64,000 nucleotides of DNA from assembly GCF_037975245.1 (NCBI RefSeq), contig NC_092581.1, positions 15,873,303 to 15,937,302 on the forward strand. Reading direction: 5' to 3'. Position 1 is the stretch's first letter. Every line of letters begins with the position of its first letter. The position numbers and the translations under genes were made by a program. The stretch is from Apostichopus japonicus. Taxonomy: Eukaryota > Echinodermata > Holothuroidea > Aspidochirotida > Stichopodidae. Below are positions 29,695 to 64,000 of the stretch, piece after piece. The notes beneath the pieces were generated by a model. That model was not told the DNA's origin. It was given only the letters and a program-made list of their open reading frames with translations, and did not search any database.

Positions 29695-29723
29695 GATTTA
29701 TATTCTCTTACTTACCAATTTTA

Positions 29724-34856: not shown

Positions 34857-35442
34857 TCATTAATCATTAACCAATAACCATTAATCATTAATCATTAATC
34901 ATTCATCATTAATCATTAAACATTAATCATAAATCATTAATCATTAATCATTAATCATTTATCATTAATCATTAATTATTAACCATTAATCATTAATCAT
35001 TAATCATCAATCATTAATCATTAATCATTAATCATTTATCATTAATCATTAATCATAAACATTGATCATTAATCATTATTTATTAATCATTAATCATTAA
35101 TCATTTATCATTAATCATTAATCATTAAACATTAATCATAAATCATTATTCATTAATCATTAATCATTAATCATTAATCATTAATCATTTATCATTAATC
35201 ATTAATCATTAACCATTAACCATTAATCATTAATCTTTAATCATTAATCATCAATCATCAATCATCAATCATTAATCATTTATCATTAATCATTAATCAT
35301 AAACATTGATCATTAATCAGTAATCAGTAATCATTAATCATTAATAATCAATCATCAACCATTAAGCATAAACCAGTAACCAGTAATCAGTAATCAGTAA
35401 CCATTAACCATTAACCATTTACCATTAACTATGAACCATTAA
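34857..35442. repeat. 7-bp satellite (ATTAATC)n, about 590 bp
   Basis: Heptamer array with variants (ATCATTA, ACCATTA, ATCAGTA, ATCATAA). Variants become more frequent toward the right end, ending in ACCATTA units. Confidence 0.97.
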
Positions 35443-35448
35443 GCATTC

Positions 35449-35682
35449 TCAATCTCATTCTCAATCTCAATCTCAATCTCAATCTCAATCTCAATCTCAA
35501 TCTTAATCTTAATCTCAATCTCAATCTCAATCTTAATCTTAATCTCAATCTCAATCTTAATCTCAATCTCAATCTCAATCTCAATCTCAATCTCAATCTC
35601 AATCTCAATCTCAATCTCAATCTCAATCTCAATCTTAATCTTAATCTCAATCTCAATCTTAATCTTAATCTTAATCACAATT
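35449..35682. repeat. 6-bp satellite (TCTCAA)n, about 235 bp
   Basis: Hexamer array of AATCTC with interspersed AATCTT units, beginning seven bases after the heptamer array. Both share the AATC core. The Arg-Leu and Ile-Glu/Lys ORFs on the minus strand are repeat translations. Confidence 0.97.
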
Positions 35683-37574: not shown

Positions 37575-40500
37575 TTTCTTTTATGAGGAGCAAACATAGG
37601 AAAATAGGATAACGTAATATAAGAACATCACCGTGTACTTCAAACAACAAATCTCTTTTATAACGTAATCAACATGCGAGATCAGGGTAGACTGTTACGA
37701 TTACAGCTACATCAATTATCCCTTCATTGAACAGCCATTTATTCAATACAGAGCATTGCGTGACGTTGATGCATATCCGTCGTCGCAGTGAACTCACGTG
37801 ATAACATCAGCAATTATCAGAGATGAATGCATCATTGCTTGGGAACCCATAATTCATTGACCCTCTTTTTGCTATTTACACCATTCTTATTCAATTGTAA
37901 GTTTTAAGAGAATTCCTTTGTTTACAATTTTTCTCACTCGCTACAGTTGCGAGAAGTTGATTTTGTGTTTAACGGCGATTGAAACACATCAGTGGAGTGT
38001 ATCACAACAAAACATTGGATTTGGACTAAAGTTTCATTTTCGTCTGTCCACTTGACACAAGAGACATTCCAATTTAATTACTCTTTTACTATATTGATAT
38101 TAAAGTGAATACGTTACCAAACGCAGTCTGATTATGTTACGAGGCGAAGCCTGTTCAATCTCATAAGAGAGTATGCTGACTCATGCATCTGTCGTTAAGC
38201 ACCAATTTGTTACACTAATTTCAAAGATGCGCCTGATTTAGTATTGTACTGTTAATTATTCATTAAATAAATAGAAACAATTTACTCATTACTTCGCAAT
38301 TTTGATATTCAAAAGACGGGCATCTCTTCATTTCATGAAGAGTTTTTCACCGTTTTTCTATACATTGATTTAGTTTGACGTTTTCTTTTCTGAAGCATCA
38401 ATTAAACTCCATCAAGTGTGCCTCTTCATGTACTATAGTCTGTTTATTTACTTATTGCTTAAATTTAACTGTAGGTATTCTAGTTAAAATGAACCATCAA
38501 ACACTGTGTTCATATGGGATAACGCGCTCGTCATTAAAAAAAACCTGCAAGGTTACATTGCACACGGCACTTTAACATGTATTGTGCATCTCGTGATATC
38601 TCGTACTATTAACGATTGATGCCTCTCTTTTCCTTCAAAATGAGATGGTATATATATTATCCTTCTCGGAATCCCTGATGTACTTTACTATGTAGCCTAA
38701 CAGGAGCAGGGGGAGCAGGTGGAACTTTCCCAGTCCGATTTTTTTAAATCGGTTTGTACTAAACAATAAAAAACCTTGAACCAAGAATGACGTAGTTAGA
38801 CTATCAAAGATGATAGCACTCTTTTGAATCTAATCCCTCCTACCCAAGGATCGCTCCCGTTAGGCCCCTCCCCAGGATGGACACCATATGTGCCATTACC
38901 TCTCCCGCAACCTAATGACTCCAAACTCATCCTTTTAATTTGAGAAAGCGCAGAACTAAGTTAAGAGAGAAATTAATTATATTTTCAACATTAACATGTC
39001 CAAAATAACGATTCAGACTGTGATAATTTGCTTCAATCAAAAATTCTTTTTCACTCCGTCAGTTTTCTAATTGGTCAAATTATTGAAGATTATGGACAAA
39101 GCGAAAAGAGTGCAATTGTATCAAACACTGGTACTATATTGTCCGAGTTATCTAAAATGTTATACAATAGAGTCACAAAAGAGTGTCTTAGCACGACTTA
39201 AAATATAGTACAAAACTACGATACTTGCTTGTACATTACATTTGGAACTAAGAGGCATTAAGGAACTAAGCTCTCAACTGTGATTAACTATGGTGTTCTA
39301 AAACTTATATGTTACTAATTAAACATCCGTGAAGAACCCGGTCTATAGTTTGGCTAAGAACTACACTTAAAATGCTGATCCTTTATTGTTCAACAAAAAA
39401 AACTTTATTTGCTTGACCATGGAGGACCAAAGTGCATAGTCTAAAACCGGCAAACAACCTACTCCTTTTGTATTATCAACATTTAACTAATCTAACTAAA
39501 CTATATATAGCGTAGACTTAGTGCACAGTAATGGGGAAAAAACAGGTTGGTACGGACGCTTAGAAGTGACATGTAACTGAATCGACGTTTTAATGAGATG
39601 CATCAAACATGAAATCCACAACATTTTAGCAGAAGTAGCAGAGGAACATTTTTAAGTTTTCGTTCTATTATTACAAAAAAAATAAAACAACGAAGTGTAT
39701 ATACTGTTGGTTCTTTGCTTTTGAAATAAGGCATAGCTTATCCCTAGTAATAAGTACAACGATCTATTGTATATAATAAATTTATGACAGTATAGAATCA
39801 ATGACAATCCAAACCGTTGAACTCATGATAGCATGTGTGAGTGTGTACCGTATTTGCTGAGCCGTATATACACGGCTCTGTGCATATCTTTGGTATGTGT
39901 GTGGGCACTGCCTTCTTGTAACACCCATATCTCTAAAAGTGTGTCCGATTGGCAACCCTTATACTTGGCATGTTGGTTTCCCATTATAGACAGGGACTTT
40001 TTTTGGTTTTATTGGTGTTCAATAGGTAGTCATCTGAATTCAACAGGATAAATCAGTGAAAACATTGTGCCTACCTTATTTCAAGAACGAAAACATGTAT
40101 GTAACCCATTCTGAGTTGGACAAACCACTTGATATTATTGTGACCACTATAGCTAAGGAAATGTAACATCGACAAGTCTCCCGTTCCATTAGCAGGTATT
40201 ACTTTGATGATTAATGTACTGATATTTGTGAAGGTCAAAATTCATCAAAGGGTCAACAGTATCTGCAGACTCATATAAATAAACTGTTTACATGATATCT
40301 TACATTTATAACAGGCAGCTCTGCATTTTATTTAGTGGTAATTACAGACTGTTGACTGTCAATATTTTATCATTGCTCAGTTCAATGAAATACATTTATC
40401 TTTATGTCTTTTTCTTCTAAAATAAATGTTTACAACTTTCTAACATTGTAACAAACTATGTCTGCTAAGAAGGGGCATACGGCAAGGGGAAAATGAGATG

Positions 40501-43500
40501 GGAGGAACAGAACTGACACCGTTATCTAGCGTATTTCTTATTCAATTAGCACAAATAATTTATAAGCTGCTCAGAAATATTGCCTATCAAAACAAATGTC
40601 TCAAATAGAAGCTTAGCTGAGTTTCTGCAAATGCGTTGCCGCTCTTGTTTACCCGTTTGCTGATGACGCGTTCGTTGATCTAATATAGGGCGCGCTATCC
40701 CATGTGAACACAGTGTTACCCGAGGCTTTTATAGAACCAACAGAAGAATATAAAATAACGTAATCTGACGTTACAGAAGTGTACTTTATACAACTATACT
40801 CTCAATTTGCGACACCAGAGTATGTATATTCATTCAATACATGTCATTTGGGAAACGTGAGTGCATATCCGACGTTGCAGATTACTCACGTGACATCAAT
40901 TCCGTCTCTAGTTTTATTACCATTCTTTTGTTTACTATTTTTCACCCATTACAGTTATAAGAAGTTCATTTCTCACATTACTGGTTATTAATGTCACTCG
41001 GAACCAATTTTAATTCGCAACAAACAAATTGAAAATGTATTCGAATGAATTAAAATATATTTCGAATGGCACTTATGGGCTTTCGTAGACACATGGGTTA
41101 TCACCTGTTTGTCTGTTCATTGACTTAATTTAAAATTGTCATTTTTGCAGCATTTACTTGACCACTTCATGTAAATATCTGTATATACATTGCTACTTAT
41201 GAAATTTAAGTGTACGTCTTCAACTTGAGATAAAATGTCTTACTCCGTTCTTTATGTTGATGGAGAATACAGAAAAAAGAAGAGAAAATAACGTTAACTA
41301 ACCTTACAGAAGTGTACTTCATTGAACCGTTTGGTACTTATAACTTACTGACCTACTTGCATTTAAGATTTGACAAGGGAGTTTACGTCTGGTGTCAATA
41401 CAAATGTCATTGTTATTTTACCATCAGCCATTGAGGTTGGACTCAAACATGTGTAAGTAATATATAGATTTCCTACAATGGTTTGATAAAGGAGTAATGT
41501 GGAGGGATTAATGAGGTTGATAAGGACTGGGATATGATCATGGTGTATTTTATGGACAGTTCACTACAATGGTACTATACTTTAATCCGTCTTGCAGAGT
41601 GCATCCTTCACATTCGAAGGTACCACATGTGCATTTAAACAGGAAAGTCATCCCTCTGTCATATAAATCAGAAGCTTTGCAATGCCAATCAAACATTGCA
41701 TTGTTGAACAGTTTGAAACTAATGCTGAAGTAAAGGAAATGGGATGGACAAGGACACAGCGATGGTTCCAGGATTAACATGGTTTACGTGGTCAACATTC
41801 TAGTAAAGCTATACTGAAAACCAACAGCTTATTATTAACAATGTAAACAATTAGTTGAGTAAAATGTTTGATGTGACTTCTTTAAATAATTTTCCTTTAA
41901 TTCTTTAATAAGAAGCTGGCTGTAGCCAGCGCAAGGTCGCCAAATCTGTTACACGGAGTTCTGCACGCACCGGTACCAGATGTGGATATATATGGAATAG
42001 AGCATCAACATAATGGCTGAAATAGCTTTGCGTGTATCTACTGAATATAGTATTACCGTAAGTGTTAAAAAAGTAAAATACACTTTCTTACCTTCACACA
42101 GGTCTAAGTGTATTGTAAGCAAAAGTAGAAAAGGAAGAACTTGGATGAGGTGAAGAAGGATGAACAAAGGGTAGACGGGGGGGGGGGGGGGGGGAATGGA
42201 CTTGTAGTAATGTTACTCAAGTCTACATCTCTTTGTTAAAGTATTATTTATCGTATGTATTCTTTTATCATCACAGTCAAAACAATCCTTATAAGAAATT
42301 ATGTATATTGATGAATAGTGCTTAAACCATATATATACATAGATATCATTTGATTTAACATCATGTTTTATTTGCATCAAACAAGAACAAAAAAGCTTCT
42401 CAATCCCGAAATGCCGTTCTCGAAATATATTAGTGCAAATTGCACTAACAGTGGAATTTGAAAAAGCAGGTGTCCACAGATGCGTAACTACGTAAACAGT
42501 TTTTCTTTATGTTTCTTATCATGTATATACCTAGGTCTGAAAACTGTTCTACTCTACGAAGCTCTAAAAAGGACATAGGAAAAATAATTATATTACGTAC
42601 GTACGTGATAATTCAATATTGGCCTACATGCAAGATACGTGCATATACGTAACGTACGGTTTTACTATATTATAATATAATATACTTCTCGTGCACTGTA
42701 CCTTGCATGTATCAATCATCCAACCACAGAAGTCAAGCTTAGTTATACGATTAAGCAGCTGACTAAAAAATGCCGGAGAGAGACAATGTAGGGTTATGCT
42801 AACACTACAGGTATGCATGTGCCTAAAATACATACGAACAAGTTCATCTCTCTCCATCTTTGTAATTAAGATGTAAGTGTTAACAAAGGCTATATCACGT
42901 AATAAAAACACGTACGTTTGTACTGAGGCCTACATTCGTTATAATTATCAGTAGTGAGTATTACGTACGTAGTAACTATTACGTACGTACGTACTAATAA
43001 TCACGTACGTACGTAATAATACTATGTACGTACGTACGTACGTAATATTATCACGTATGTACGTTATAAATATTACGAACGTACGTAGTAATTATCACGT
43101 ACGTACGTCATACATATCACGTACGTACGTCATACATATCATGTACGCAAGTTATACATATCACGTGCGTACGAAGTATTTATCACGTACGTACGCAATA
43201 CATATTGTACGTACGTAACAAACATCACGAGCGTACGTGATATCACACGTACGTACGAACGTAGTATTATTACGTACGTACGTAATTATTTAGTTTACGA
43301 TGTCCTATCTAGAGCTTCGTACTACTCTCAATACAGTGGTTATAAAATTTTATAATGTCAATTCAAAGTACAAACATATACTCAAGCAGTTAATTGTAAG
43401 TCACAAAATTAAAGAAAAACTATTTGCTTTAGTGTAATTTATACAAGATGTATAATCTTCCATGACCATCTCGTATACGCCATATTAGAATTTCAAGAAA

Positions 43501-46345
43501 GTTTGTTTTACTTGGGGGTTAACATTATGTTCCTCTTTCACAAATGTTAAATCATTTTATCATTCAATAATTTTTTAAATTTATATGAACATCTACAATT
43601 TTGTGGTTTTGATGACGTCGTTTTTTATTCGAACAGTAAGTCATGAGACATCTTTGGATCACAATAAATACATTTTACCACTACCGTAGTTTAGATTTGA
43701 AAATCGCTTAACTTCACATGTCTGTTCAAGCAGATTTTGCTATAACTTTCAATTGAAATAATATGTCTTACCAACTCCTATAGCGAAAATAATATTATAA
43801 TAATGTAAGGATAAAAAGGAGAAGGGGAAAACCGTCACTGATACTATACTGCATTACTCACATGTAATAGACTACGTTACATATATATTTTTAGTTAATG
43901 TAATCAAACGCTCGGGATCAGAATTTTATCACCTCTCACGGAAGTTAATTACGTTCTTATGACTCTGAACGTAAATTGGGTCCATTTTTATTACCTGCTG
44001 CAGTGGATCCGAAGATGTGTAGGCTGAACTGAATTGGCTGTCGCCAATCTACAAATACGTCATTATTTCCAAACAGAGCATTGTTAAATGAGTCTTGTGT
44101 ATTTAATATCCATTAAACTTCAGTGAGCATATTACTCAGTATTCTTTCGTATCATTATCATTCTTAAAGTCATATAAACATATATAGCTTCTCTTTCTAA
44201 TGTTTACACTCCCAGAAACCCTTTTGCAATCATGAGTACGCATGTCCATTTCCATTACTATAACTTTTGATTTTCACTCAGGTGATTGCTGAAGGAAACA
44301 ATTCATCGCCGTACAAAACTGACTTGTACATCTCGTTTTCTCCCCACCACCGTTTGCGAATTGAATCTAACATTTATTTTAGTAGCATATGTATGTATGT
44401 ATGTTTGTATGTATGGGTGTGTGTATGTATGCGTGTGTACGTGTGTGTGTATCGGTGTATGTATGTGTGTATGTTTGTATGTATTTTAGATCCTCCTGCA
44501 AGCAGGAACTAGCGAAGAAGCCATCATTGGCTTATCAAAGCCGCAAGCTGACCGTAGTCAGTCTCTTAGATTCATATTTTAACGTCCATGATTATGAATT
44601 GTCAATTGTCAACAACTCTGTAACTGGTTGACATACGTTAAACTTGGGGTGACTCGAACTCGGGACCTTATGATTGAAAGGCACCGGCGTTAACCACTGA
44701 GCTGACACTCCCTTGTATATATTTCACCCGGAAGTGGTGTCACTTTATATAAACAACTATATTATTATCGGGCTACTGCTATAGCTATTTAAACTTAAAA
44801 TTGTCTTAATCATCTCAAAATTAAACTAGATTGCCTCACCATTTTCCAAGACTTTTAGAAACAACAGAAAACGATGACGATTGAAAAGGAGAATATGGAG
44901 ACGAAAGGTAAAAGAGGAGAAGTAATAGCAGAAAGAGAAAAAGATGAACAAAACATTAAAGTATTGTTAAAAGTAATCAAAATAAGTGTACATCTGCCGG
45001 TTAAAGTAATCAAAGTGCGAGTTTTATTTCACCGTCACAGCCAAATGAATCTTAACTATAACAAATACTATATAATGAGGAAGAGAGGATGGAACACAAA
45101 TCGATCATTTGACATGTTTTATGCGAGATAAATTTAAACCTAAATCCAGATTGTTAGACTGGAATCATGAAAATTTTGACTTATTATTAACGGTTCTCAT
45201 TTTAGTAACTTTGTTTCTTAAATAAGTTATATATATATTCTTCTATACAGTAATCTAGAAACTGATAACAACAAAATTTCATCAATTTAAGAGGTCGAAC
45301 TTGAATGTGATATCATGAGTCAGGTGATTGTGAAGATGTCACTTTATCTTTTGTATATTTCTTAAGTGACACAACTTTAGATCAAACAACGTAGCCTATA
45401 TTATTGGTGTACTCTGTTTGACACAACAGACATCTGAAGTGAAATCACTTCTTACTTTTCCGAATATAAGGGAATCCATATGTTGTTATTGACCCTTAAC
45501 TAGCATATGCTAGGACAAGGACCCTACCAGATTAGAACATAGTACATAAGTATATCGACTACCTTACAAATAACGAAAAGCTCTTCTCTTAAAAGGGATA
45601 TTCAGGTGGCAGACACTGTGACATTTACATGAATAAAAGAAATGTTCCATACTATTCGTTGGAAACCCCATCTCATTTTACCCTAATCCAAAATTTGGTT
45701 TATTTAATGTAACCTACTTTTTGACGGCCTATGTCATTGATTCTCCACAATGAAGGCAAAAAGTGAAATATTCTTTAAAATATTTGTTTTCCGATAATAT
45801 TCTTCTTGTAGATTTTTCCTTGAAACCTGATACAATTGGCATGTTTGCTTAGCTGTCATGTTTATTCCTTATCAGAGTTGCATAAATATGCAAGTTTTGT
45901 GTACATTCATTTCTACTATGTATAAGAGAGTTCAACGACTTCAAGAAAGTAAGAATAATTTCAGCTGAATTGCCGTGATGACATCATTCACTCCTCTGTT
46001 GCCAGATTCATTCACAAAATATCACCAAAACATATCTTCTCCATACAATCAATATTAGCCACTGGAATATTTCTTTAACTGGCGCCTTGTTTAATCAGTC
46101 TTGTTTTTTGCATTTTACTGTGAGTCATTACTCCCATGATTCATCTAATGAAAAGCCATCGAATGTTTGTCTGCACTGTGAATTATTGTAGAAGTTTCGG
46201 TACTATTGCCTTCATCGGCCGGGACTTCACTTCATGAGATGCAAGTATATGTCGCTATTGCTCTATGTTTACTTAAAAATAATATCTCACTACTAGTATA
46301 GTTTTGCTGCGAGTCCTCAAATTAAAAGAAATGTCTTACCCGATC
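37575..46345 (-). CDS. Candidate micro-exons, left group
   Basis: Minus-strand sites with acceptor AG, 3n bases, then a GT donor. 46340-46345 GATCGG (GTAAGAC); 44840-44851 TCTTGGAAAATG (GTGAGGC); 43772-43777 GAGTTG (GTAAGAC); 41244-41249 AACGGA (GTAAGAC); 40720-40725 CCTCGG (GTAACAC, +4 not consensus); 37575-37577 AAA (GTAAGAT). Each is preceded by a T/C-rich stretch and embedded in a diverged copy of the common repeat unit. Lengths of 3, 6 and 12 bases all keep frame. With introns in phase 1 none contains a stop. No function can be assigned. The 12-base and 3-base members are the least certain because flanks are more diverged. Transcription is inferred. Confidence 0.5.
41550..41674 (-). CDS. 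Candidate terminal exon of a secreted Cys-rich peptide
   Basis: Open frame of 41 codons to a TAA at 41552-41550, following an AG at 41676-41675 that gives the phase expected from the signal-peptide exon at 42092-42167. It encodes SDLYDRGMTFLFKCTCG, TFECEGCTLQD and ends VVNCP, with five cysteines in about 25 residues. The frame is open further upstream and a stronger pyrimidine-rich acceptor (CCTTTACTTCAG, near 41727) exists but does not fit phase 1. The family is not recognised. Confidence 0.35.
42092..42167 (-). CDS. Candidate signal-peptide exon
   Basis: ATG at 42167 opens MFILLHLIQVLPFLLLLTIH then LDLCE and one base of the next codon before the donor GTAAGAAAG. This is a textbook secretion signal: short, strongly hydrophobic, with a Cys/Glu after the core. 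The intron is phase 1, the same phase in which all candidate micro-exons in this region are open. Caveat: the stretch is pyrimidine-rich, and any such tract translates to Leu/Phe/Pro/Ser, so it could instead be a splice acceptor tract before a 12-base exon (42092-42103, after CACTTAG). Confidence 0.45.
42960..43287. repeat. Minisatellite of (ACGT)n palindromes
   Basis: About a dozen blocks of CACGTACGTACGT or variants spaced by AT-rich linkers (ATACATAT, AATAAT), roughly every 20-30 bp. A further block lies at 42595-42607. CpG-dense in an otherwise AT-rich, CpG-poor region. Every block is self-complementary. Confidence 0.9.
44385..44479. repeat. (TATG/TGTG)n tail of SINE copy 2
   Basis: A degenerate ATGT/GTGT array, read on the minus strand as a (CATA)n tail of the SINE at 44480-44715. 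Same arrangement as 149-609, but short. Confidence 0.85.
44480..44715 (-). mobile_element. tRNA-derived SINE, copy 2
   Basis: Minus strand: head TCAGCTCAGTGGTTAACG (box A-like) and GAGTTCGAGTC (box B-like), then a body with GGACGTTAAAATATGAATC, TACGGTCAGCTTGCGGC, TGGCTTCTTCGCTAGTTCC and TGCTTGCAGGAGGATC, then the CATA tail. Body and tail match copy 1 at 610-825. Heads differ, so the family may have exchanged tRNA heads. Confidence 0.8.
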
Positions 46346-47365
46346 CTTTCATGTAGAAAACAGAAGAGGGAAAAAAGTTATGAAAGCAAACGTAATGAAG
46401 TGTACTTTATTTATGTAACAAATATATTGTTAAAACAATTCAATATGCGAAATCAGAGTATACTTTTGTATACAAACAATGCAGTCGCGGTTAATCCATG
46501 CAGAGATGCGGTAGGTATATGGATTACCGATTGGAACCGTCACACCATCTACTCTTCTGTCTCATTTATTCATCATACGTGACCCTTGCAATTTAAAGAG
46601 AATGATGTTGTTTACTGCTTGTTTCAACATTTCCAGTCGTGCAAAATCCAAGTTATCACTACTGTTGATCTCGAGATATAGAGTATTTTGTTATCTGAAC
46701 GCTTAATTTGGACATTACCTTCCTTGTTTGTCAGTTTATTTGCTACTAACTCGAGAAATCTGCAGTTACCTACGTTCTTATATTCCCTCGTCAATTGGAT
46801 CTATTTGTTATTACCATGTGACCACTGTGAGATATATCTTCTATGAGGGCAACTCTGCTTTGGTAAACCGAGTAAATATGTTGAATGGCTACACCTCTGA
46901 CTACTCCAGGAAGTTGGATCACAGTAGGGAGGTTTGTGATATCATCTAGGCAAATTATATCAGAAACTTTACTAGGCTTTTATAATCTTCTTGTTGATTC
47001 ATCAGAAACATGATACAATTGGAATGTTTGCTTAGCTAACAAGACTCTCTGTACTTAGAAGTCTGGATATCAAAATTTATCTTTATTATAGGAATAGTAT
47101 TTTCCTCTGTGGATACATTATCAAGAAAAACAAAGACAGTTTCAACTATAGTGTAATGATGACAAATATACATTCAGCTGTTAAGGGATGCATTTAAAAA
47201 AAATCATACATGTCAAATTAAAAAAAAAACATTACATATGGAGATGAGAAATGACGAGGATGAAGTTTTTGCCTACAGATTCAGAACATATTAAGCAACT
47301 AGCCAAAAAGCAATCATCCATCACAAAATACTTTAAGGTGTTCGGATTGAAATGAAATGTCTTAC

Positions 47366-50300
47366 CAATTTCTATTAGGGAGAAAACAAAAGACGAAGAA
47401 GATGCCACAGAAGTTTTTTTTTCTTTATATTTCAACAGTGCTCTTGTTAAAATAATCAACATGGGAATTTTGTATACTTTTATTATACAGCCACATCACT
47501 CAGCATCCATGCAATCAGCATCCATAGAAATTAAAGCATTAAAGAGAAATCATTTGTTTACTACTTTGACTCCCGTGACGTTTGTTAAAAGTCCATTTTA
47601 TTCCTACTGTAGATAACTGCTTATTTGTCTGTAGAATGACTTAGTTTGAAGCTTTCATTGTTGCAGCAATAAGTTGAGCAAAAGTGTCTTGTCTTTAGCT
47701 AATGTAATAACAGTACTGTATATATGTCTTGAAAATACAATGAAATGTCTTGTCTTACCGAAAGCTGTTGGAGAGAAAACAGAAGAAAAATATTAACGTA
47801 AATTAATGTTACTTAAGTGTACTTCTTCATGTTATAACGGTTCTCTTGTACTCAACATAAGAGATCCATGCATTTATTTGGACAGTCAACCTAAAGAGCT
47901 GTTCATTCATTTAAATACATCAAGTAGCGTGAGTGAATATCGGCCGTCGCGGTGAACCGATGTGACAGATGTATCACAATTGCTCTCACTTAACATATCC
48001 AAAACGTTTACTGTATTTTATTTCTAGAGACAAATCATGTTGTTACTACTTTTGTCAACAATACCGTCGTGACAAGTTCTAATTATCACAACTCTGGATC
48101 AAGATATATCAATTTTGTAGTTTGACTTGGATATTGCATCTTCTGTGTCGTTCTTTTCCTTTTAAACACATCTGAAGTCAGTTACATTTGACGACTGTGA
48201 CTGTAGTCATGACAGTGAGTAGATCATACTATGATATGGCGTGATATATGATAAGGTTGCTACTAGATCTGATGACGCTAGTACGCTGAATGCCAACAAC
48301 TATACCATCCAGCTACGAATATGCTATTCTCTTTCAAATTTGCTCTTGTACTGTTCAGCAAATTATTCTTTGATCTGTGAGTAAACATTTTAATCAATAT
48401 ATTACAAGCTGTCTGAACTTTTTGTAAAGTTTTGGTTTATATATTTCAAATAGTTCATCTTTTCATCTCCTGGAGAAGTTTCTCATGTTTTTCTCTAGAC
48501 TGACATAGTTTCACGCTTTCATTGCTGCATCGTTAACTCGAGCGACAGGATTGTGTCTGCAGTTAGGTCTATAACACTATTGTGTATACGTATTTAACTT
48601 AAAACAAAGTGTCTTACCGTAAGCTGTTAAAGAGAAAACAGTAAAAGAAAAGTTGTTCACGTAAATTAATGTTACTGAAGTGTGTACTTCTTCAAGTTAA
48701 AACGGTTCTCTTGTACTCAACATAAGAGATCAGACTATGGGTTTATTTGGACAATCAACTTAAAGAGCTGTTCATTCATATAAATTCATCAAGTAACGTA
48801 AGTGAAAATCCGCCATCGCAGTGAACCGATATGATAGATGTATCATAATTGCTCTCACTTAACATATTTAATATGTTTACTGTATTATTTACATTTGACG
48901 ACTGTGACTGTAGTCTTGACAGTGAAGTAGATCATACTATGATACGGCGTGATATATGATAAGGTTGCTACTAGATCTGAGGACGCTAGTACGCTGAATG
49001 CCTACAACTCTACCACCCAGCTGCAGATAGGCTATCCTCTTTCAAAGTTGCTCTTGTACTGTTCAGCAAATCATTCCTTGAGCTGTGAGTAAACATGTTA
49101 ATCATTATTTTACAAGCCCTCTGAACTGTTTGTAAAGGTTTGGTTTTATATATTTCAAATAGTTCATCTTTTCATCTCATGGAGAAGTTTCTCATGTTTT
49201 TCTCTAGACTGACATAGTTTTACGCTTTCATTGCTGCATCGTTAACTCGAGCGACAGGATCGTGTCTGCATTTAGGTCTATAACACTATTGTGTATACGT
49301 ATTTAAATTAAAATAAAATGTCTTACTGTAACCTGTTAAAGAGAGAACAGAAGGAAAAATGTTGTTAACGTCAATTACTTTTACTGAAGTGTATCCTTCT
49401 TCATGTTATAACGGTTCTCTTGTACTCAGCATAAGAGATCTGACTATGGGTTTATTTGGAAAGTCAACTTAAGGAGCTGTTCGTTCATTTAAATTCATAA
49501 AGTAACGTGAGGGAATATCCGCCATCGCAGTAAACCGATATGACAGATGTATCACAATTGTTCTCACTTAACATATTCAATACGTACACTGTATTTTATT
49601 TCTAAAGACAGATCATGTGGTTACTACTTTTATCAACAATACCGTCGTTACAAGTTCTAATTATTACAACTCTGGATCAAGATATATTAATTTTGTAGTT
49701 TGACTAGGATATTGCATCTTCTTTGTCGTTCTTTTCCTTTTAATCACATCTGAAGTCCTTTACATTTGACGACTGCGGCTGTAGTTATGACAGTGAAGTA
49801 GATCATACTATGGTATGGCGTGATATATGATAAGGTTGCTACTAGATCTGATGACGCTACTACACTGAATGCCAACAACTATACCATCCAGCTACAAATA
49901 TGCTATTCTCTTTCAAAATTGCTCTTGTACTGTTCAGCAAAATATTCTTTGAGCTGTGAGTAAATATGTTAATCATTATACTACAAGCTGTCTGAACTTT
50001 TTGTAAAGTTTTGGTTTTATATATTTCATATAGTTCATCTTTTCATCTCATGGAGAAGTTTCTCATGTTTTTTTTCCTAGACTGACATAGTTTTACGCTT
50101 TCATTGCTGTATCGTTAACTCAAGCGACAGGATCTTGAATGCATTTAGGTCTATAACACTATTGTGTTAACGTATTTAAATTAAAATAAAATGTCTTACT
50201 GTTAACTGTTAAAGAGAGAACAAAGGGAAAAAGTTGTTAACGTAATTTAATGTTACTGAAGTGTATACTCTTCTTTATGTTATAACCGTTCTCTTGTACT

Positions 50301-53300: not shown

Positions 53301-54621
53301 TTGAATGCATTTAGGTCTATAACACTATTGTGTATACGTATTTAAACTAAAATGAATGTCTTACGTCCAACTGTTATAGGGAAAACAAAAGAAGTAAAGT
53401 TTTATGTTACTGAAGTGTATACTTCCTAATTATATAACGGTTCTCATGTACTCAGCATAAGAGATCTGACTATGCATTTATTTGGACAGTTAACTTAAAG
53501 AGCTGCTCATTCATTTAAATACATCAAGTAACGTGAGTGAATATCCGCCATCGCAGTGAACCGATATGATAGTTGTATGTTAGCAAAGGAAAGTTGTTAA
53601 CGTAATTTAACGTAAAAGTCAAGTCACGTGGTTACTATTTTTGTCGACATGACGGTCTTCAACTATACCGCACAGCTATAGGTAGGCTCTTCATTTTCAA
53701 ACTTATTCTTGTACTGTATATTTATTTATTGATTGAGCTGTAGTAAACATTCTAAACATTCTAATCATTAGTTTGCAAGTTGTCTGAAATGATTGTTAAC
53801 TTTTGGTTTATATATTTCACGTTAGTCCATCTTTTCATCCCATAAAGAATTTTTTACCACTTTTATATAGATAATACTGGATTAGATTGTTACTTTGATT
53901 TTGGCATGGTCTTTGAATGGTCTTAGCTTTATCTAAACGACTGTAAACGTCCGTACCACTGTAATTCAATGTAAGTATTCAAAATGATATAAATGTCTTA
54001 CCATATACTTTTACAGAGGAATTAGAAGAAGACGAAAAAGACGAAGAAGACGAAGAAGTATACTTTTTCATGTTCCCAAAAGTATGTTGTTAAGTAACCA
54101 TCATGCGATTTCAGAATACACTGTAATGATTACAGCCACATCAATCAGCTAATTCAAAGCATTAAGTGACATTGATGCATTATCGCCGTCGCAGTGGACT
54201 CGTGTGATAATCGTAACTTTCATCAGAGATTATACATCATCGTTTGGAAGTTGAACTTATCGAATCTCACCTATCACATCATCACCATTCTTACCGCGTT
54301 TAAAGGGTACTACTTTATTTACTAATTTTCCATCCCGTTACAGTCCAATTATGAATATTGTGGATAACGGGATGCAGAGCTTGTCACTACTGGACGTAAT
54401 ATTTGCACTTTATATTTGGATATTACCTTTCCATCTATCTTGCTTACCACTAGTGATCCGAAGCTAATTACATTATTACTGTTCCGACATTAAAACAGAT
54501 TATATGCTAGTATAGGCAACCATAGTATGATAATCACTGTATATTTAATTATTCGTATACTTTTTATGTCTCAAATTGTTTAAGTAGATTTGATAAAAAA
54601 GAAATGTCTTACAGTCTATTA
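47366..54621 (-). CDS. Candidate micro-exons, central amplified group
   Basis: Sites in minus orientation: 54613-54621 TAATAGACT (or only 54613-54615 ACT); 54002-54007 TATATG; 53365-53370 TTGGAC; 52496-52501 CTATCA; 51946-51951 GTCACA; 51071-51076 CTTACG; 50200-50205 TTAACA; 49327-49332 GTTACA; 48618-48623 CTTACG; 47759-47764 CTTTCG; 47366-47371 AAATTG. Nearly all have the donor GTAAGAC (GTAAAAC at 52496). Most are preceded by a tract such as TTTTCTCTTTAACAG. About 25-30 bases upstream lies a branch-point-like GTTAAC. The hexamers differ between units whose flanks are nearly identical. In phase 1 all are open. In phase 0 the 9-base form contains stops. The frame beginning one base into the exon has a TAA in TTAACA. 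Confidence 0.6.
47740..54010. repeat. About 870-bp tandem repeat, 7-8 copies
   Basis: Successive micro-exon positions are spaced 859, 709, 873, 871, 875, 550, 869 and 637 bp. Full copies contain, in order on the plus strand, the CTTAC splice module, GTTACTGAAGTGTATAC, TTCTCTTGTACTCAACATAA, CCGCCATCG, GTTTACTGTATTTTATT, CAATACCGTCGTGACAAG, TTTGACGACTG, GATAAGGTTGCTACTAGATC, TTCAGCAAAT and CATCGTTAACTCGAGCGACA. The 709-, 550- and 637-bp copies have internal deletions; the 709-bp one lacks the CAATACCGTCGTGACAAG block. The flanking units (37-47 kb and 54-64 kb) are older relatives. Confidence 0.9.
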
Positions 54622-54776
54622 CTAAAAAGAAGACAGAAGAAGAAATTATTTAGTTAAACTAACATTACTGCAGGGTGCGTTTTTTTGTTTTTGTTTTTGT
54701 TTTTTTGTTTTGTTAAACTAATCAACATGCGAGATCGGAATATACTGTCATAGATCTGTGACATGTGTATGCTATG

Positions 54777-54843
<67 letters not shown>
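54777..54843. repeat. (AT)n microsatellite
   Basis: AT dinucleotide run of about 66 bp inside a micro-exon unit. A (GTTTTT)n stretch lies just to its left near 54678-54712. Confidence 0.96.
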
Positions 54844-54846
<3 letters not shown>

Positions 54847-54955
54847 CGTAATTTATATTCTTTGGCGGCATTAACTCCATTGCTGGTGTATTTAAATGTA
54901 TGTCAACATAGTTACTGATATAGTTTTACTAATAAATTCAAATGAAATTTCTTAC

Positions 54956-57900
54956 CGATGACTTCATGATAGCGAAAGAGGAAGAAGAAAATCATTAACC
55001 GAAAGTAAAGTTATTGAAATGTATACTTCTTTATGTTACAACTTTTATCTGGTTAAAGTAATCAACGTTCGAGGACAGAGTAAACAGTTATAGCATTACA
55101 GCCAACTGAGTTAGCTATTTATGTAATACAAATCACTAATTGACATGGTCGCGTATCCGACGTCGCTGTGTAAATGTCATCGATATGCTAGAAGTATGAG
55201 ATCAATCGGCTATTCATTCAATGCATACCATCAAGTAACGTGGTGCATATCCGCTATTGCAGTAAACCCACATAATAACCATAACTTCAATCAGAGAGTG
55301 CGTTTTTACATCCGTGAATCTATCTATCTCCTTTCACTTTTATCTATCTCCTTGCATTTAATAACCACGTAAAGTTCATTTTATCGTTATTTTGCATCAA
55401 GACATTTAACTATTAAGATACATAACTTTAGAGTGTGATTCATTTCTTATTATCAACCTCATCGTGATGTATGATACGATAGGAACTCGGTTAGATCTGA
55501 TGGAGCCAGTAAGTCGCATTTCATCGACTGTTGTCCAGCTGCAGGTATAGTATCGCCTCTAACTTTTAGTCTTGCACTTTTCATTATTCATTGAAACATT
55601 TACCCATTTTTCGTCAGTTGTTTAGATAAATATCTTAAATGTTGGTTTTCATATTCAAAACTCGTTCATCTTTATCATGAAGACTTTTCCACAGCTTGGA
55701 TATACGTCATTGACTGGTTCGTAACTTTTATTTCGGGATCACGAACTTCATCTACGATGTCTTCACTTGATGTGTTAAAGGCCTGTCAATGTAGTAATGA
55801 AGTATCTTACCCGAATCTTTTATGGAAAAATACATAGGAAAAGTGAATAACGTACAATAAGAAGGTACTGTGTACTTCATATAACAAAACAACAAACGAG
55901 ATCAGAGACGACTAGTACGATTTCAGCCACATCCATCAGCAATTCATTCAATGCAAAACATAAAGTGACGTTGGTGAATATCGGTCGTCGCAATGAACTC
56001 ACGTGATGACATTATGTTTTATCAGAGGTTTATGCATCATTGCTGTGAATTCATCGAACCTCCTTTTGCAATTTTTACCATTACTATTCAGTTGTAAGTT
56101 TTATGAGAATACCTTTGCTTACTATTTTTCTCACCAACAACGCTCGCGAGGGGTTTTTGACCAATAACAAGGCATTAACTGATCTGGTACATTATCTCCG
56201 TCGTCGTTAACCAACACTGATAGGTGATAACCTGTGGCGTTACCAGCGGAGGAGTGTGCGGCAGTATGGGAGCTCTCAGTTAAATGCCTTGCCCCCCCCC
56301 CCCACACACACACACTCACTTCACCCTCCAAATGACATTTGGTGGAGGAAAATAGTGGACGACACTTACAAAATGCATTAAAAAGTGTAGCATGTTTTAA
56401 TATCGTTAAAATTTGCGCCTATTTTATCAGATTATTACATTTGATTATTCACTGAACTGTAGTATACTTTCTACTCCCTATTCGCAAATTGGCTAACAAG
56501 ATTTATTAAACTTTCGTTTATTTGTTCAAAAGTAATATATATCTTTTTATAACTTAAATACGTTTCCACTGTTTGTTTATAGTATGACTTAGTTAATGCA
56601 ATCATTTTGGCAGCATTTACTTTATCGAAGAGTACTACACTTCATGTGAATGTCTATAAACGTATTCACTACTTAAATATTTTGATATTATTTCACTCTA
56701 AGTCAACAAATTAAATTGTCTTACCAAGGAAGTCTATAGAGAAACCAAAAATTTAAATATTATCTTAACTTGACGTTATTGAAGTGTGTATATCCAAACG
56801 TTACAACAATTCTCTTGATTACGAACTCAACATGCAAGAGCAGAGTAACTTTTTGAATACAGCAAGAACATTCAGCTATTTATTTAATGCAAAGAATTAA
56901 AGTCTCGATAGGTGTTTGCTGATCAATTTCGGAAAACAAACTTCCGAAGCAGATTCAATGTTTCTTATTCTAAATGCACTCTGACCGGGTGGGTTTAATG
57001 TCGAAAGCTGATGCAATCGACAGAAAGACATTAATTTTATGTTGCCCTTATGGCGCGAACGATTTACCGTAAAATCACTGCGACCGCCCATATCAGCATG
57101 GGTTCATTACACAAATGTAACCTATATATATATACTCGTATCGTTCACTTTTTTGACACGATTCTACGGAGGAAACGTCTGAAAACACCGGTTCATTCAT
57201 TACAATGGAGAGAATGACACAATTTCGCAAGATACATCGGTAAGACCGAAAGAAAGATACTAAGAAGGGACCTAACACAGGCTAGTCACGAAAGTGAAAG
57301 TATTCCTAGGCCTAACGGTCGTAAACAAAACATAGAGATTTGATTGACGCATGGTCTGTTGGGCGGGGCTTGCAAAGTTTGATTGAAGTAAGTAGAATCT
57401 ACGGACTCGTTAATAAATCTGGCGAATTTTATGAAGCTCAAAATGTTTAACGACAGATAACTCAATAAAGGTAATGAATATTGATATGGAAATTGCATAG
57501 AACGGTGTCATTTTCATTTAGCATTTATTGCAATAAGCTGGAAAGTTCGAAGTTTAAATTTGGCAAACACGTATTGAGACTTTAAGTGACGTCGGTCTAT
57601 TACCGTCGTCGTCGTGAATCCATACAGATAGGTGATAACATTATTCACAGGTGTATACATTATCGTGTGGAGCATGAGTTCCGGGATACTCTCACATAAC
57701 GTCTACTCACCGTTCTAACTTTAGTTTAACAATTCAATTTTGGCAGCATTTACTTCATCAAGGGGTTCGTCACTTCATGTTAATGTCTATAGATATCTTA
57801 CTTCTTAATATTTTGTACGACTTTAAAAATAAATTAAATTACTTACCTCCCACTTCAATAGAGAGACATAAAGAATTCAAAATATTATTGTGAATTTACG

Positions 57901-60900
57901 TTACGGAAATGTATATTTTTTGATGGTACTGCAAGTCTATTGTTAAAGTACTCAATATGCCAGAGCAGAGTATAGTGCTATGAGTACAGCCAGAACAATT
58001 GACTGTTCAGTCAGTGCAAAGCATTAAGTGACATTTGTATTTGAACCCAGTCGTCGTGAATTCTCACATATAGGAGTTTATCATAGCAGATTATTTTATT
58101 TGATTAATCGCTCAACTGTAGTATGCCTTTCACTCTCTACCTTCATAGTTGGCTAAGAATATTTGTTAACATTGGAGATATATGTGCACAACTCATACAT
58201 TGTTTTATCTCATGAAGACATTACCATTGCTTGTCTGTAAATCGACCTAGTTTAACAATTACATTTTGGCAGCATTTACTTAATCGAGGGAGTCTTCACT
58301 TTTTGTAAATAACTATAGACAATTTACTTGTTTATGTTGCCTCTATTAACTATACAACTTCAAATTAAAATCACTTACCCCAGGCTTCAATAGAGAGAAA
58401 AAAATCCGAAATATTATCTTAAGTTAACATAAACTGAGGTTTATATTTCTTTATGGTAAAACAAGTCTACTGTCTAAGTACTCAACACGCGAGAGCAGAG
58501 TATAGTGAATTTAATACAGCCAGAACATATGACTGTTCATTTAAGTGGAAAGCATTAAGTGACGTCGGTATATTTCTCACGTGGTACATCCTCACAGATA
58601 GGAGACCTCAACCAGAGGTGGCAGCATTATCTTATAGAACTGATTGCCGGTCTACCCGCATCCATCATCTGCAAACCATTCTTATTCAGGTGTATAACTT
58701 TAAATAGAAATTCTTTTTTTTTCTCTTTTCACACCGTTATCTTCTGGGGAGGTACATTCGCAAACTCTGGTTCCTGATATATAAAACATTTACTTCATCG
58801 AAGAAATCTTCAGTTCGTGTGCATGGCTATACACTTAACACTTCTTAATTATTTTGATCTTTTTACTCTAAGTCAACAAATATAAATGTCTTACCAAAGT
58901 CATCTATAGAGAAATTAATAGAACAACATATTACCATAAATTAAGAGAATATTACAGTATATTATTAATTTTGATTATTCACTGAGCTGTAGTATACTTT
59001 CTACTCACTGTTTTGCAAGTTGGCCAACAAGATTTGTTACAATTTGGTTTGGTTGTTTACAAGTCATATATCTTTTTTTATGAAAAGGATCTTTACTTCA
59101 TGTGAATGTCTATAAACTTTTAACTTCTTAAAGAGGCCATATCACGAAAAAATCCAACTCATCTAGAGTAACTTACTCCGAATCTATGAGAAAATCTATG
59201 TTCAAAACTATCCTCATCACCTTGAAAACCTCAAGGACTAATTAGAAATGAACGTTTTAATATGCGCATCTGAAAATAGATATCTGAAAATGCGATTTCA
59301 AAACAAGACAATGATGAAGTCATGTTAGGAACACAAGTGCCAATCCCAGGCACGTACCGGATGCGCGACAATCATACCGTCACACATACACGCACATTTA
59401 CACTGAGAGAACTACCACTGTATAACGCTATATCGTTAGCAATTTCAAGTTTGTTTTACAAAATGTTGTATAATATCCGAGAGAAATGTCGGTCCGTTGT
59501 GTTGTTGGGGGCTGCACAAAACATAACCCATGCAATTAGCCTTCATCGATGGCCGGGAAAAAAAAACACGGCGATTATGACCAAGTTAGTGCACAACACC
59601 AGCGCCGATTTCACTGGTCATAGCCAGTATGCAGCTCCGTATGAAGCGAACACTTCACGGAAGCATACCACGATCCCTCCTTTTTTATGAATTAAATCAA
59701 ATGGACTTTAACAATTCGACATAAAAGAGTCGTTCTGCTGTCAAGTAATCCACATTAAAAATACTCTGAAGACCAGATCGGGGAACAGGAAACCTCCAAT
59801 GGGGCAAATGGCGATCCTTTGGAGGTAGCGCGGTCGAGCACTAGTAGTACTAGTATTAGCATTATTACACTGAAGTCGCAATAGACGAAGAGATTTTGCT
59901 GTATCATTTAAATTAACACCCCCTTCATTGCTCTATTGTATACTAATAAGCTATGAGGTTAGCTTCAGAAGTGATGGGTTACATCTTCTTGTGAAAAATC
60001 TCAGTGCCCCAATTTATTTCTGGAATATGCTGGATCAGTTAGTTATAGCAATAATTTCTTATTCCTATTCCAGGAAAACCATTTTTTTTATGTTGGGGGA
60101 GGGAGTGGGGGTAATGGGGATGGGACAAAATGGGTAGGTAAAATGATTTTATTCCAAAGGGTGTTTAAATCTCAAAGCGATTTATTTTAAATTATCAGAG
60201 CCAAAAATTCACACAACGTAGTTCAAGTCTTAAATCATTGAAAAAAGTTTATTCAATATCAGTTCTAGACAGTCATTCTGGACAATCTGAACAAGCCTGT
60301 GACTAAACTAACATTAACAACAATCATTTTATTATATGGCATAAAAGTAAAACTGTACTTTCCATAGACATTATCATTCTTAAATTACACTAATGTAATT
60401 TGTGACATCAAAGGAGGTTTAAAGAAAAACAACTTACATGAAATTTTTGGCTTTAAGCCTACAAAGCAGTTGCATGTTCATCGCTATCAATCGTTGTTGT
60501 GACAAATTAATTAGAATAGGCCTAATCCAGAAGCAAATACAATAAAGGGTAATTTAAACCAAGAAACACTGCACGACGCAACTCACATGCAAAAATGTTA
60601 CCCACGCACGACGTCACGAACAACAATGACGGGCAACGTGAAACACAGCATCACACACATTAAAACAATCGAAGACCATTAACAGGGTGTACTGCTGAGT
60701 TTCTGAAGAAAGATTGTAAAACAAAACAACTGCTGCTGAAGAAACAAAGTCTAATCATTCAAGAGTTCTGCTGCCTCCATTGGTCTTTATTATGACTTTT
60801 CTGTGAAATATCATTGGTGGTATGGATATTTTGGCTTCCAGATTAAAGGTACAAAGCAAACATGTCTGGGAGGTAAATGCTCATAAAACGGTCAATGCCC

Positions 60901-63652
60901 GTTCCCTTATGAACATATTATATGACATCACGGTCACGCCAATACTTGTGTCCAAATGCTACAAACATGCCTTTTCTTTCATTGTTGATGTTGGGTCTGG
61001 AAAATAACCATTTCATCCTGAATTAAAAGTCTTAAATTTCAATATATCAACACTGAGGGAACCCTGACGGATTGATAATCCAACACAATCGTAGAATAGA
61101 AAAGGTGTTTCTGGAGGCATTTCTCAACCAAGGCTTCCTATACAATGAGTTTTCTCCTGGCAACTTTAATCCAGTGTAATGACCATTGGCTGGAAACTCC
61201 CTTCTGATCCTTTGGCCGCACATGATGGTAGCGCAACCCTGACGTGTCTTGCTATGAACCCCCAGTACCATTGAACCGGTTGACCGTAGGCTATGTATCT
61301 GTACTGCCTGGGAAAAAAATATGAAAGTTCAAAATGTATTAATGTTGGCCCATGATCTCCACAATAACAAGCAGGCATACAATGTACAGTTATGGTTACA
61401 TTTGTTGTAAATTTACACCTTCCATATATCATGAAACATTCTTTTGTTTCAGAAAATTGATTTGCAAACTCCAGGCCAAAGTACTAGCCTAGTAATAATG
61501 AGTATGAAATAACACATATACCTACCAACATAGCATGGGTGCATAATGCAACTTACATCCCCGAGCCAAACTTTCAGTGTGCAACCAACCCTACTAAATA
61601 CTACAACACACTGTACATATGGGTTGTAAGTTACCGTAACACAACGCACAATACGGTTTAGGGAGTTCCGCGAATTCCAACAACACATGCACAAAATGGA
61701 CTGGATTTTGTTTTTAAATGCTTCGTTAATAAATTCTTACCACGTTGTATGTTCCTTGCAATCGTTTCGAACGGGTTTCTTCTTCGATATGTTGTGGAGC
61801 TTCAATTTCGGCTCGTTTAACAGGTTCGAACTGATACGGTTCTAACACCTCAGGTCCACCCTCAACGTTCGGTTCAATATTGGCCTGATCATCGCCTTCA
61901 CTCTCTGCTTCGAATATGATAAAGGGCACTCTAATTATAGCCCAATTTCACTGCCTGGTGAAGAACCACTATCACTTTGAACTTCGGTTGCCGCAATTGG
62001 TTCTGGATCCGCCATGTCACAGGAAATTTTGATATCGCACTTGTGATCGGTGTTTTGTTTAGTAACTACTAGTGGTATGTGTACTTGTCTAATGTGTACG
62101 TGAATGGTATGTTCGGCGTAAACAGCGACAACAGTTGTGTTCATAACATGACGTCACATGACGTCATGCGAATCGGAAAATTTTCGAGTAAACAAAGTTT
62201 CAATCGCCGAAGAGGGTAAATTCATTCTCAATTTTCGACTTGAAAAATCAAGTTTCAAACTGGCAGATTGGTTGATACATGTTCTAGAGAACATTCATTG
62301 TTGGATCCCAAAAATATAGGACTTTGAAATTTTCGTGTCATGGCTACTTTAACTGTTCAACTCTAAGTCAACAAATTAAACTGTCTTACCATAGTTTGCT
62401 ATAGAGAGTCAAAAGAAGAACATATCTTAAATTGTCAAGACAGATGTGTATATTTCCACTCGTTACAACAATTACCTTGTTTACGTACTCAACATGCAAG
62501 AGCAAAGTATTTTATTAATATACAGAGAGATTAATCGGCTGTTCAATAAATACAAGGCATAAACTGACGTTGGTACATTATCCCCCGTCGTAGTGAATCC
62601 ACACAGGCGATAACATTATTCATAGGTGTATATATTATCGTTTGGAGCCTGATTTTCTCACATAACGTATACTCACCATTCTAAACTTAGTTTAACATTT
62701 CAGTGTTGGAGGCATTAACTTCATCAAGGTCTTCACTTCATGTTAATGTCTATAGACATATTACTTCTTAATATTGAGATTTTGTACTATACAACTTCAA
62801 ATTAACATATCTTAATCTGTGACTTCAATAGGAATGTAGTGTTATGAACACAGCCAGAACAATTGACTGTTCATTTGGTGAAAAGCATTAAGTGACATTG
62901 GTATATTAACCCCGTCGTCGTGAATCCTAACATATAAGAAAATATTACAGCAGATTATTATTTGTTATTATTCACTGAACTGTAGTATACTTTCTACTCA
63001 CTATTTTGCAAGTCGGCTAACAAGATTTGTTACAATTTGGTATGTTTTTTTTCACAAGTCATATATCTCTTTATCTCATGAAGACTTGACCATTGCTTGT
63101 ATGTACATTGGCCAAGTTTAACAATTACATTTTGGCAGCATTTTCATCACCGAGGGGGTCTTCCCTCATTGGAATGTCTATAGACAAATTACTTGTACTT
63201 ATTGTAACTTTTTACTATACAACTTGAAATTAAAATATCCTACCCTTCACTGCAGTAGAGAGGAAAACACAAAATATTATCTTTTATTAACATTACTGAG
63301 GTGTTTATTTCTTTATGGTACAACAAGTCTCAGGTTTAAGTAGTCAACATGCAAGAATAGGAAAGTAGTGTTGTGAATACAGCCAGAACAATTGACAATA
63401 CATTTAGTGGACAGCATAGAGTGACGTCGGAATATTGCCCACGTTGTGGTGAATCCTCACAGATAGGAGACCTATCCGGGATATTCTCACATATCGTATA
63501 ATCACCATTCTAACTTTAGTTTATCAATTCATTTTTGGCAGCAGTTACTTCATGAAGAGGGTCTTCACGGCATGTTAATGTCTATAGACATATTACTTCT
63601 TAATATTTAGATTTTCAATATTCAACTTCAAATACAAAATCTGAATCCGTGA
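54956..63652 (-). CDS. Candidate micro-exons, right group
   Basis: Minus orientation, with donor: 63244-63249 TGAAGG (GTAGGA); 62390-62398 CAAACTATG (GTAAGAC); 58895-58903 ATGACTTTG (GTAAGAC); 58379-58384 CCTGGG (GTAAGTG); 57847-57852 TGGGAG (GTAAGTA); 56725-56733 ACTTCCTTG (GTAAGAC); 55811-55816 ATTCGG (GTAAGAT); 54956-54961 TCATCG (GTAAGAA). Two degenerate copies at 63647-63652 (TCACGG) and 62817-62822 (TCACAG) keep the acceptor TATTGAAG but have AT in place of the donor GT. The three 9-base members share the acceptor CTCTATAG; 6-base members use TATTGAAG, AAAAG or similar. The array continues past the right end of the window, so the 5' end of any such gene lies outside. Confidence 0.55.
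59485..59690 (+). pseudogene. THAP-domain fragment, frameshifted
   Basis: ATG at 59487 opens MSVRCVVGGCTKHN, the first half of a THAP domain (C-x4-C). A stop and frame change follow near 59535. In another frame SLHRWPGKK continues, and after a further shift the segment ending SADFTGHSQY matches the second helix region of THAP domains. Closing Cys and His residues were not found. At least two frame breaks in about 150 bases make it a relic. Located just inside the left end of the transposon, the usual place for the N-terminus of a THAP-containing transposase. Confidence 0.65.
61065..62016 (-). pseudogene. P2X7 C-terminal-like zinc domain, fragmented exons
   Basis: Exon-like pieces in order on the minus strand. 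From ATG 62016: MADPEPIAATEVQSDSGSS, then after a frame change GGPEVLEPYQFEP and ETRSKRLQGT to a donor GTAAGAA near 61739. Next 61700-61557 (acceptor ATCCAG, donor GTAAGT): cysteine-rich CMCCWNSRNSLNRIVRC, then YNPYVQCVV and LKVWLGD. Next from 61317 (acceptor TTCCCAG): QYRYIAYGQPVQWYWGF, IARHVRVALPSC, then after another frame break IRREFPANGHYTGLKLP. This is the pattern of the cysteine-rich cytoplasmic ballast domain of P2X7, which occurs as a stand-alone domain in many invertebrates. No P2X channel part is present. The phases of the last junction do not join cleanly, so an exon may be missing. Confidence 0.65.
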
Positions 63653-64000
63653 CTTCAATAGAACAAAAAGAAGAAAGAAAATAAAGGTGCCAAAATATTA
63701 TCTTGAATTAACAACACTGAGGTGTATTCCTTTATGGTACAACAATTCTATTGTTAAGTACTCAACATGCCAGAGCAAGAGCATATGGTTATAAATACCG
63801 CAAAAAAAAATTGACTGTTTATTCAGTGCAATGCATTAAGTCGCATTGGTATGTTTACCCCGTCGTCGTGAATCCTCACAGATAGGAAGTTATTATAGCA
63901 GATTATTACATTTGAATATTCAATGAACTGTAGTATGCTCTCTACTCACTGTTTTGCAAGTTGGCTAACAAGATTTGTTAAAATTTCGTTTGTTTGTTCA
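62353..64000. other. Right end of the unit array
   Basis: Diverged repeat units continue to the window edge. Conserved modules such as TTTGGCAGCA, AGCATTAAGTGACATTGG, CCCGTCGTCGTGAATCC and GTAGTATACTTTCTACTCAC recur every 400-900 bp. Apart from the micro-exon sites listed no coding content was recognised. Confidence 0.6.

Follow-up and report, generated by a model that had tools for sequence, protein, structure and literature searches.

Tandem array of candidate micro-exons of 3 to 12 nucleotides in a predicted secreted-protein gene family of Apostichopus japonicus

We report 26 candidate micro-exons of 3 to 12 nt on the minus strand of a 64,000-nt stretch of Apostichopus japonicus DNA (hereinafter, the window; C21:15873303-15937302, contig NC_092581.1, in an assembly of 672 Mb and 35 contigs). 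We believe that their array is very probably the body of a protein-coding micro-exon gene, the product of which would probably be secreted, and that this gene is one of about 19 such candidates in the genome. The window holds a part of the gene, denoted A, at 37575..64000 (minus strand); the gene goes on rightward to its exon 1, and an extra 40 kb was also read in that direction. The array extends approximately 8.3 kb past the window edge, up to a 9-nt exon (C21:15945637-15945645). To the right of the window there are 12 further micro-exons, then seven larger exons (15-30 nt) and, outermost, one that resembles a signal-peptide exon; 46 predicted exons of gene A were read in all, 38 of them of 3-12 nt (this 9-nt exon included). 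The paralogous loci read are B (C11:6.38-6.44 Mb), C (C23:7.89-7.94 Mb), D (C23:9.22-9.27 Mb) and E (C17:13.94-14.01 Mb); each has a micro-exon array like that of A, and the exon order is largely common to A-D. This covers 5 of the about 19 copies; exon 1 of C is not included, nor is the 3' end of E, whose array is still running where the sequence read stops. The following was established at the level of sequence: the splice-signal anatomy, the phase, the lack of stops in that phase, exon 1 and the largely shared exon order.

The candidate splice sites were sought by a rule that leaves exon length free (donor GTAAGA or GTAAGT, a pyrimidine tract, the first AG, any length of 0-30 nt). In the five array regions it found 148 sense sites, 146 of them of lengths divisible by three (6, 9 or 15 nt), and 17 sites on the antisense strand of the same regions. 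E accounts for 11 of the 17, seven of them copies of a single 15/16-nt item. In 67 kb of region A that do not belong to the array, both strands together contained 7 sites. Genome-wide pattern searches, with the reversed pattern as control, gave 54 matches to TTTCTCTNTAACAG-N6-GTAAGAC vs 0 for the control. With N{0,30} in place of N6 there were 64 matches, 62 of exactly 6 nt (control, 4); a second N{0,30} pattern matched ten times, each time with exactly 9 nt (control, 0), and a third 56 times, 52 with 9 nt and one with 6 (control, 5). On the antisense strand of the E array (C17:13.94-13.98 Mb), seven units of the form GAG-CCCGTTACCATTTGT-GTAAGTCCAT, with variants, have 15 or 16 nt from AG to GT.

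A weight matrix was trained on A-D, with E kept out of training. At summed scores from 18 upward, every pair that it yielded in the five regions was on the sense strand; lengths of 6 and 9 nt dominate, in E as well. In this raw list one donor may be paired with several acceptors, and there are other lengths too (7 of 44 in E are not multiples of three). At a score of 14, two antisense pairs appeared in D. With the choice of the first AG the matrix called 182 sites, only 4 of them of other than whole-codon length. Two of these, in E, become 6 nt with an earlier donor; the remaining two, of 1 nt in C and of 8 nt in D (C23:9235997), are degenerate in appearance. The initial annotation of the window had the lengths always in whole codons, which stands for the great majority of the rule-found sense sites, but not for the sites in C and D. 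Its remark that acceptor and donor stay recognisable across diverged units is borne out: AG and the donor GTAAG are near-invariant across the array, while the intron interiors (median introns of 640-849 nt) diverge. The 6-nt exons themselves are near-random, with 0.03-0.22 bits at the first five positions.

To examine the reading frame, 191 exons from the five genes were placed end to end in their order (38 from A, the 15-nt exon included, 37 from B, 36 each from C and D and 44 from E). In this set, three sites in E that the matrix had called at 14-18 nt were taken as 6 nt, and eleven exons that it had not called were supplied. Over 450 codons, the three frames contain 16, 46 and 0 stops, with 27.4 expected from composition; the array of the window gene has none in frame. 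Read in the open frame, each exon opens with two bases that complete a codon and closes with one that begins the next; this is also the frame set by exon 1, which was found separately, by conservation. As far as the joined exons tell, the micro-exons share one symmetric phase.

Exon 1 of gene A lies at C21:15954119-15954179, 16.8-16.9 kb past the window end. Its sequence, ATGAAACTGTACGCGTTCTTATGGATCACACTGACTGGCTGCTATGCGAGTGAATGCTTAA|GTAAGT, has a signal-peptide-like start (MKLYAFLWITLTGCYA-SECL...), and its last base is the first of a codon. It was picked by eye from conserved stretches upstream of the arrays, and the phase was not used. Exon 1 of B is the same as that of A; E has MKLYAFLWITLTGCYALECI with GTAAGT, and D has MKLYAFLWITLTGCYASDCI. 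In E, which is diverged and was outside the training set, exon 1 scores 104 by BLOSUM, the next best stretch 30 and the antisense best 26. In the four genes where it was read (A, B, D and E) it ends in the matching phase; the chance of a phase match is one in three, and the weight rests on the joint picture. By inspection, its conserved hydrophobic start predicts a signal peptide.

Between exon 1 and the array are mini-exons of 24, 18, 24, 18, 30, 24 and 15 nt in the same phase. Strict patterns found all seven in A, C and E, six in D and four in B. Each of the seven holds one or two Cys codons; the strict search demanded a Cys codon, and Cys conservation there is not an independent test. The 18-nt exon (PRLCK/PSRCK), the 30-nt exon and the first 24-nt exon were aligned to E without this demand, and Cys is kept.

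At the genome level, the exon-1 peptide has at least 22 matches, at least 19 of them at E<=6e-4, on C4, C11, C17, C21 and C23; it is identical in six copies, gene A among them. Downstream of 17 of the 19 strong matches, within 60 kb on the same strand, there are hits of the micro-exon splice pattern. Conversely, 120 of the 130 pattern hits fall within 60 kb downstream of an exon-1 match on the same strand, i.e., in 0.1% of strand space, with a limit that was set after the hits had been seen. Ten hits lie outside: two on C11 just beyond the limit, at approximately 61 kb, two on C17 and one on C20 with lengths of 6 or 9 nt, and every one of the five with another length (24, 24, 30, 16 and 8). 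The initial annotation proposed that the micro-exons are coding; this is supported by the single stop-free frame, the phase-matched signal-peptide-like exon and the co-location of exon 1 and arrays genome-wide. An exon-1 match or a micro-exon hit without its partner was observed at C17:27774783 (+), C21:10469161 (+), C7:14007984 and 13872807 (-), C12:12522275 (-), C20:8649514 (-) and C17:6620875 (-); these are perhaps diverged or partial family members.

The proposal that the array arose by tandem duplication of exon-intron units agrees with the runs of near-identical 6-mers at equal spacing, e.g., the four TGCGGG units at 516-nt spacing in B. The core common to the units consists of a pyrimidine tract, AG, the exon, GTAAGA and a T-rich intron start. 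In the first array exon of D, the AG of A-C is lost and the next AG, 3 nt on, preserves the frame. In 136 flank-matched pairs from A-D, the exon divergence is 0.156 vs 0.070 in the flanks, and 0.152, 0.218 and 0.097 at codon positions 1, 2 and 3. In the whole codons of 171 pairs that include E, there are 8 synonymous and 99 non-synonymous changes, a ratio of 12.4 vs 4.35 for random changes; the pairs are not independent. By orthologous group (24 exon groups), 18 of 59 sites vary at position 2 and 9 of 59 at position 3 (Fisher p 0.08), a sign test gives 10 to 4 with 10 ties (p 0.18), and the variable codons are 18 non-synonymous and 1 synonymous. The group variability of 0.215 is inside the range of six flanking control windows (0.136-0.328). 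The exons change about as fast as the nearby intron by group, and faster in the pairwise counts. Diversifying or positive selection is apparent in the pairwise counts and non-significant by exon group, and we make no such claim.

Joining 45 exons of gene A gives 158 residues, stop-free, with the end not found; the predicted product, approximately 160 aa long, would begin with a signal peptide and a Cys-rich portion and continue into a variable tail. The most frequent whole codons in 126 exons of 6 nt are those of Tyr (26), Ser (18), Arg (15) and Trp (13). In Pfam the window product has no match, and that of E has one below the cutoff (E 0.028); the best match in PDB has E 0.27. We infer transcription, splicing and secretion of the product as follows. 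Transcription of the minus strand would produce a precursor of 43 kb or more, in which splicing joins exon 1 to the seven 15-30-nt exons and these to about 38 micro-exons (3-12 nt), each of which adds one to four residues to the variable tail. An exon of 6 nt is below the size that ordinary exon definition needs; therefore, recognition would probably depend on the long pyrimidine tract of each unit and on its strong donor. With one symmetric phase, the frame would survive the inclusion, skipping, duplication or loss of any of these exons. That the product serves in recognition or defence as a secreted factor is a guess prompted by the signal peptide, the Cys residues and the variability. Since some 45 internal exons are in one phase, it is conceivable, albeit doubtful, that each gene is a combinatorial splicing cassette, in which tissues or cells would include two-codon exons selectively. 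A secreted protein rich in disulfides would then exist in a great number of isoforms, and the repertoire would be renewed by tandem duplication of exons. If this is true, an animal that has no antibody genes would be diversifying its recognition or effector proteins somatically, at the level of RNA.

The observed anatomy could also belong to segments that are spliced but mostly do not stay in mature RNA, i.e., splice-assisting (recursive-splicing or decoy) micro-exons dividing a very long intron. The regular spacing agrees with this, given the intron lengths above, and strong pyrimidine tracts and donors around near-random 6-nt exons suit signals rather than content; however, such a role offers no reason for stops to be avoided in one frame alone (0 vs 16 and 46), and it explains neither why 6 or 9 nt are left instead of 0 nt nor why the phase is common with the signal-peptide exon. 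We consider it very unlikely. That the array is a non-coding tandem repeat with a motif merely similar to splice sites seems scarcely credible to us: the units are tandem duplicates, some of them near-identical (e.g., those of B), but AG and GTAAG hold against diverging intron interiors, the signal is confined to the sense strand, and the arrays are linked to a conserved signal-peptide exon on five contigs. Finally, the window copy might be a decaying pseudogene of a genuine micro-exon family, considering the lost signals at the unit near 63652, the donor GTAAAA at 52496 and the last exon AAA, as well as the 8-nt site and a broken-donor unit in D. This is very unlikely in view of the exon-1 peptide shared without change by six copies, the window copy included, and of an array without an in-frame stop.

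The reading as a protein-coding gene must nevertheless be set against several points that weigh on the other side. A terminal exon with a stop was not found among conserved 3' candidates examined across copies, which were rejected as none retained both acceptor and frame, and the search of a protein database of uncertain animal coverage gave no candidate homologue of the predicted product. Several acceptors are poor (GAAG or AAAG), the donor of exon 1 in D is GTACGT instead of GTAAGT, exon 1 is known from four rather than five of the genes read, and two of the 19 strong exon-1 matches have no downstream pattern hit. The stop count was made after the removal of the two sites of 1 and 8 nt, and seven of its micro-exons were picked by a no-stop filter or as homologues of such; neither these seven nor the mini-exons, which were found with phase and no-stop filters, test the frame. 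The initial annotation took whole-codon lengths as a sign of coding; the lengths are of this kind, but they are not proof alone, because the units derive mostly from a few ancestral units and, being duplicates, do not give independent draws of length. Paired exons are equal in length in 171 cases and different in 14, each time by 3 nt, a comparison that was made after the removal of the sites of other lengths and does not test the rule; neither do the exons of 15, 18, 24 and 30 nt, which were sought with a filter for multiples of three.

Within the window, the candidate micro-exons run from 63249 down to 37575 on the minus strand: 19 of 6 nt, four of 9, two of 12 and one of 3. The initial annotation counted about 25, and the sites are present where it placed them, save for its uppermost unit near 63652 (tattgaag TCACG gattcag), which lacks a donor and was left out of the count. 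The donor signal that it described is likewise present, but weaker at 63244, 52496, 44840 and 40720. From right to left, the array starts with TGAAGG (63244..63249, donor GTAGGA), the 9-nt exons CAAACTATG (62390..62398) and ATGACTTTG (58895..58903), CCTGGG (58379..58384), TGGGAG (57847..57852), the 9-nt ACTTCCTTG (56725..56733), ATTCGG (55811..55816), TCATCG (54956..54961) and the 9-nt TAATAGACT (54613..54621), where ATA GAC is read between split codons. These are followed by TATATG (54002..54007), TTGGAC (53365..53370), CTATCA (52496..52501, with the donor GTAAAA), GTCACA (51946..51951), CTTACG (51071..51076), TTAACA (50200..50205), GTTACA (49327..49332), a second CTTACG (48618..48623), CTTTCG (47759..47764), AAATTG (47366..47371) and GATCGG (46340..46345). 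The leftmost members are the 12-nt TCTTGGAAAATG (44840..44851, donor GTGAGG), GAGTTG (43772..43777), the 12-nt ACCTGTGTGAAG with a Cys codon (42092..42103), AACGGA (41244..41249), CCTCGG (40720..40725, donor GTAACA) and the 3-nt AAA (37575..37577), the weakest member, at which the C copy has a 2-nt deletion. Those at 44840 and 40720 were picked with the phase and no-stop filter. An array intron contains, at approximately 44480-44730 (minus strand), a tRNA-like stretch (SINE-like, by eye) with a CATA-type tail.

To the left of the array, a 200-nt block at 34401-34600 (minus strand) was dropped as a candidate terminal exon. It occurs in 13 other places at 91-97%, 12 of which match array copies by position, and one (C21:8421248) has no matching exon 1; we regard it as repeat-like because its bases 137-191 are also dispersed on nine contigs at 82-87%. 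An array of the heptamer AATCATT (85 copies), followed directly by one of TCTCAA (39 copies), occupies 34855-35681. LINE-like retroelement open reading frames lie at 28539-32666 (plus strand), with the frame 29598-31715 carrying endonuclease/phosphatase and reverse transcriptase domains. A Type I hammerhead ribozyme at 26613-26653 (minus strand; 38.6 bits, above the Rfam gathering score), near a 157-nt tandem repeat (26825-27139), is possibly part of a mobile element.

Standard gene finders can be expected to miss such genes, and others may be hidden. A protein coded largely two or three codons at a time would be an extreme test of how the spliceosome recognises exons too short for exon definition, and the 191 exons of five paralogues are a natural data set on splice-signal requirements. 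Vertebrate neural microexons, 3-27 nt long, stay in frame and follow a strong pyrimidine tract, and they occur as single cassettes in ordinary genes; the present exons are similarly tiny, in frame and preceded by a strong tract, but their arrays would supply most of a protein.

The initial annotation suggested a parallel with the micro-exon genes (MEGs) of Schistosoma, and the two are comparable in kind, with symmetric tiny exons in a gene for a probably secreted protein. According to PMC10526429, MEGs form a multigene family with secreted products bearing a signal peptide, long introns and 10-20 very short exons, mostly divisible by three and most of 15 bp, and have a hydrophobic/aromatic motif FL..F-X6-W after the signal peptide. 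The present genes share with this description many short exons, mostly in whole codons, among long introns (the splicing is predicted), a signal peptide in the first coding exon (by inspection) and a multigene family. They differ in having about 38 micro-exons per gene, mostly of 6 nt, plus the block of Cys-rich mini-exons, and the motif is absent by eye from the predicted products. Alternative splicing of the central exons is a further trait of MEGs. No Pfam family or homologue was found for the predicted product, and no direct comparison with MEG sequences was made. It is largely supported that the window gene would work like a schistosome micro-exon gene; membership in the MEG family is not implied.

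The bicycle genes of aphids, as PMC9168663 describes them, have about 17 exons per gene on average, including many micro-exons, nearly all internal exons start at codon position 2, and the products evolve rapidly. The internal exons here also begin nearly always at codon position 2, and they are shorter than those of bicycle genes. Bicycle proteins carry a CYC motif, which is absent by eye from the product predicted here. In the portions of the open-licence literature on microexons and micro-exon genes that were covered, nothing resembles this family. MEGs, bicycle genes and the candidate genes reported here are of the same kind in a broad sense, and the present family would be a more extreme form of the flatworm micro-exon genes. 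This points to a possible further origin, beyond flatworms and aphids, of the micro-exon strategy for making variable secreted proteins.

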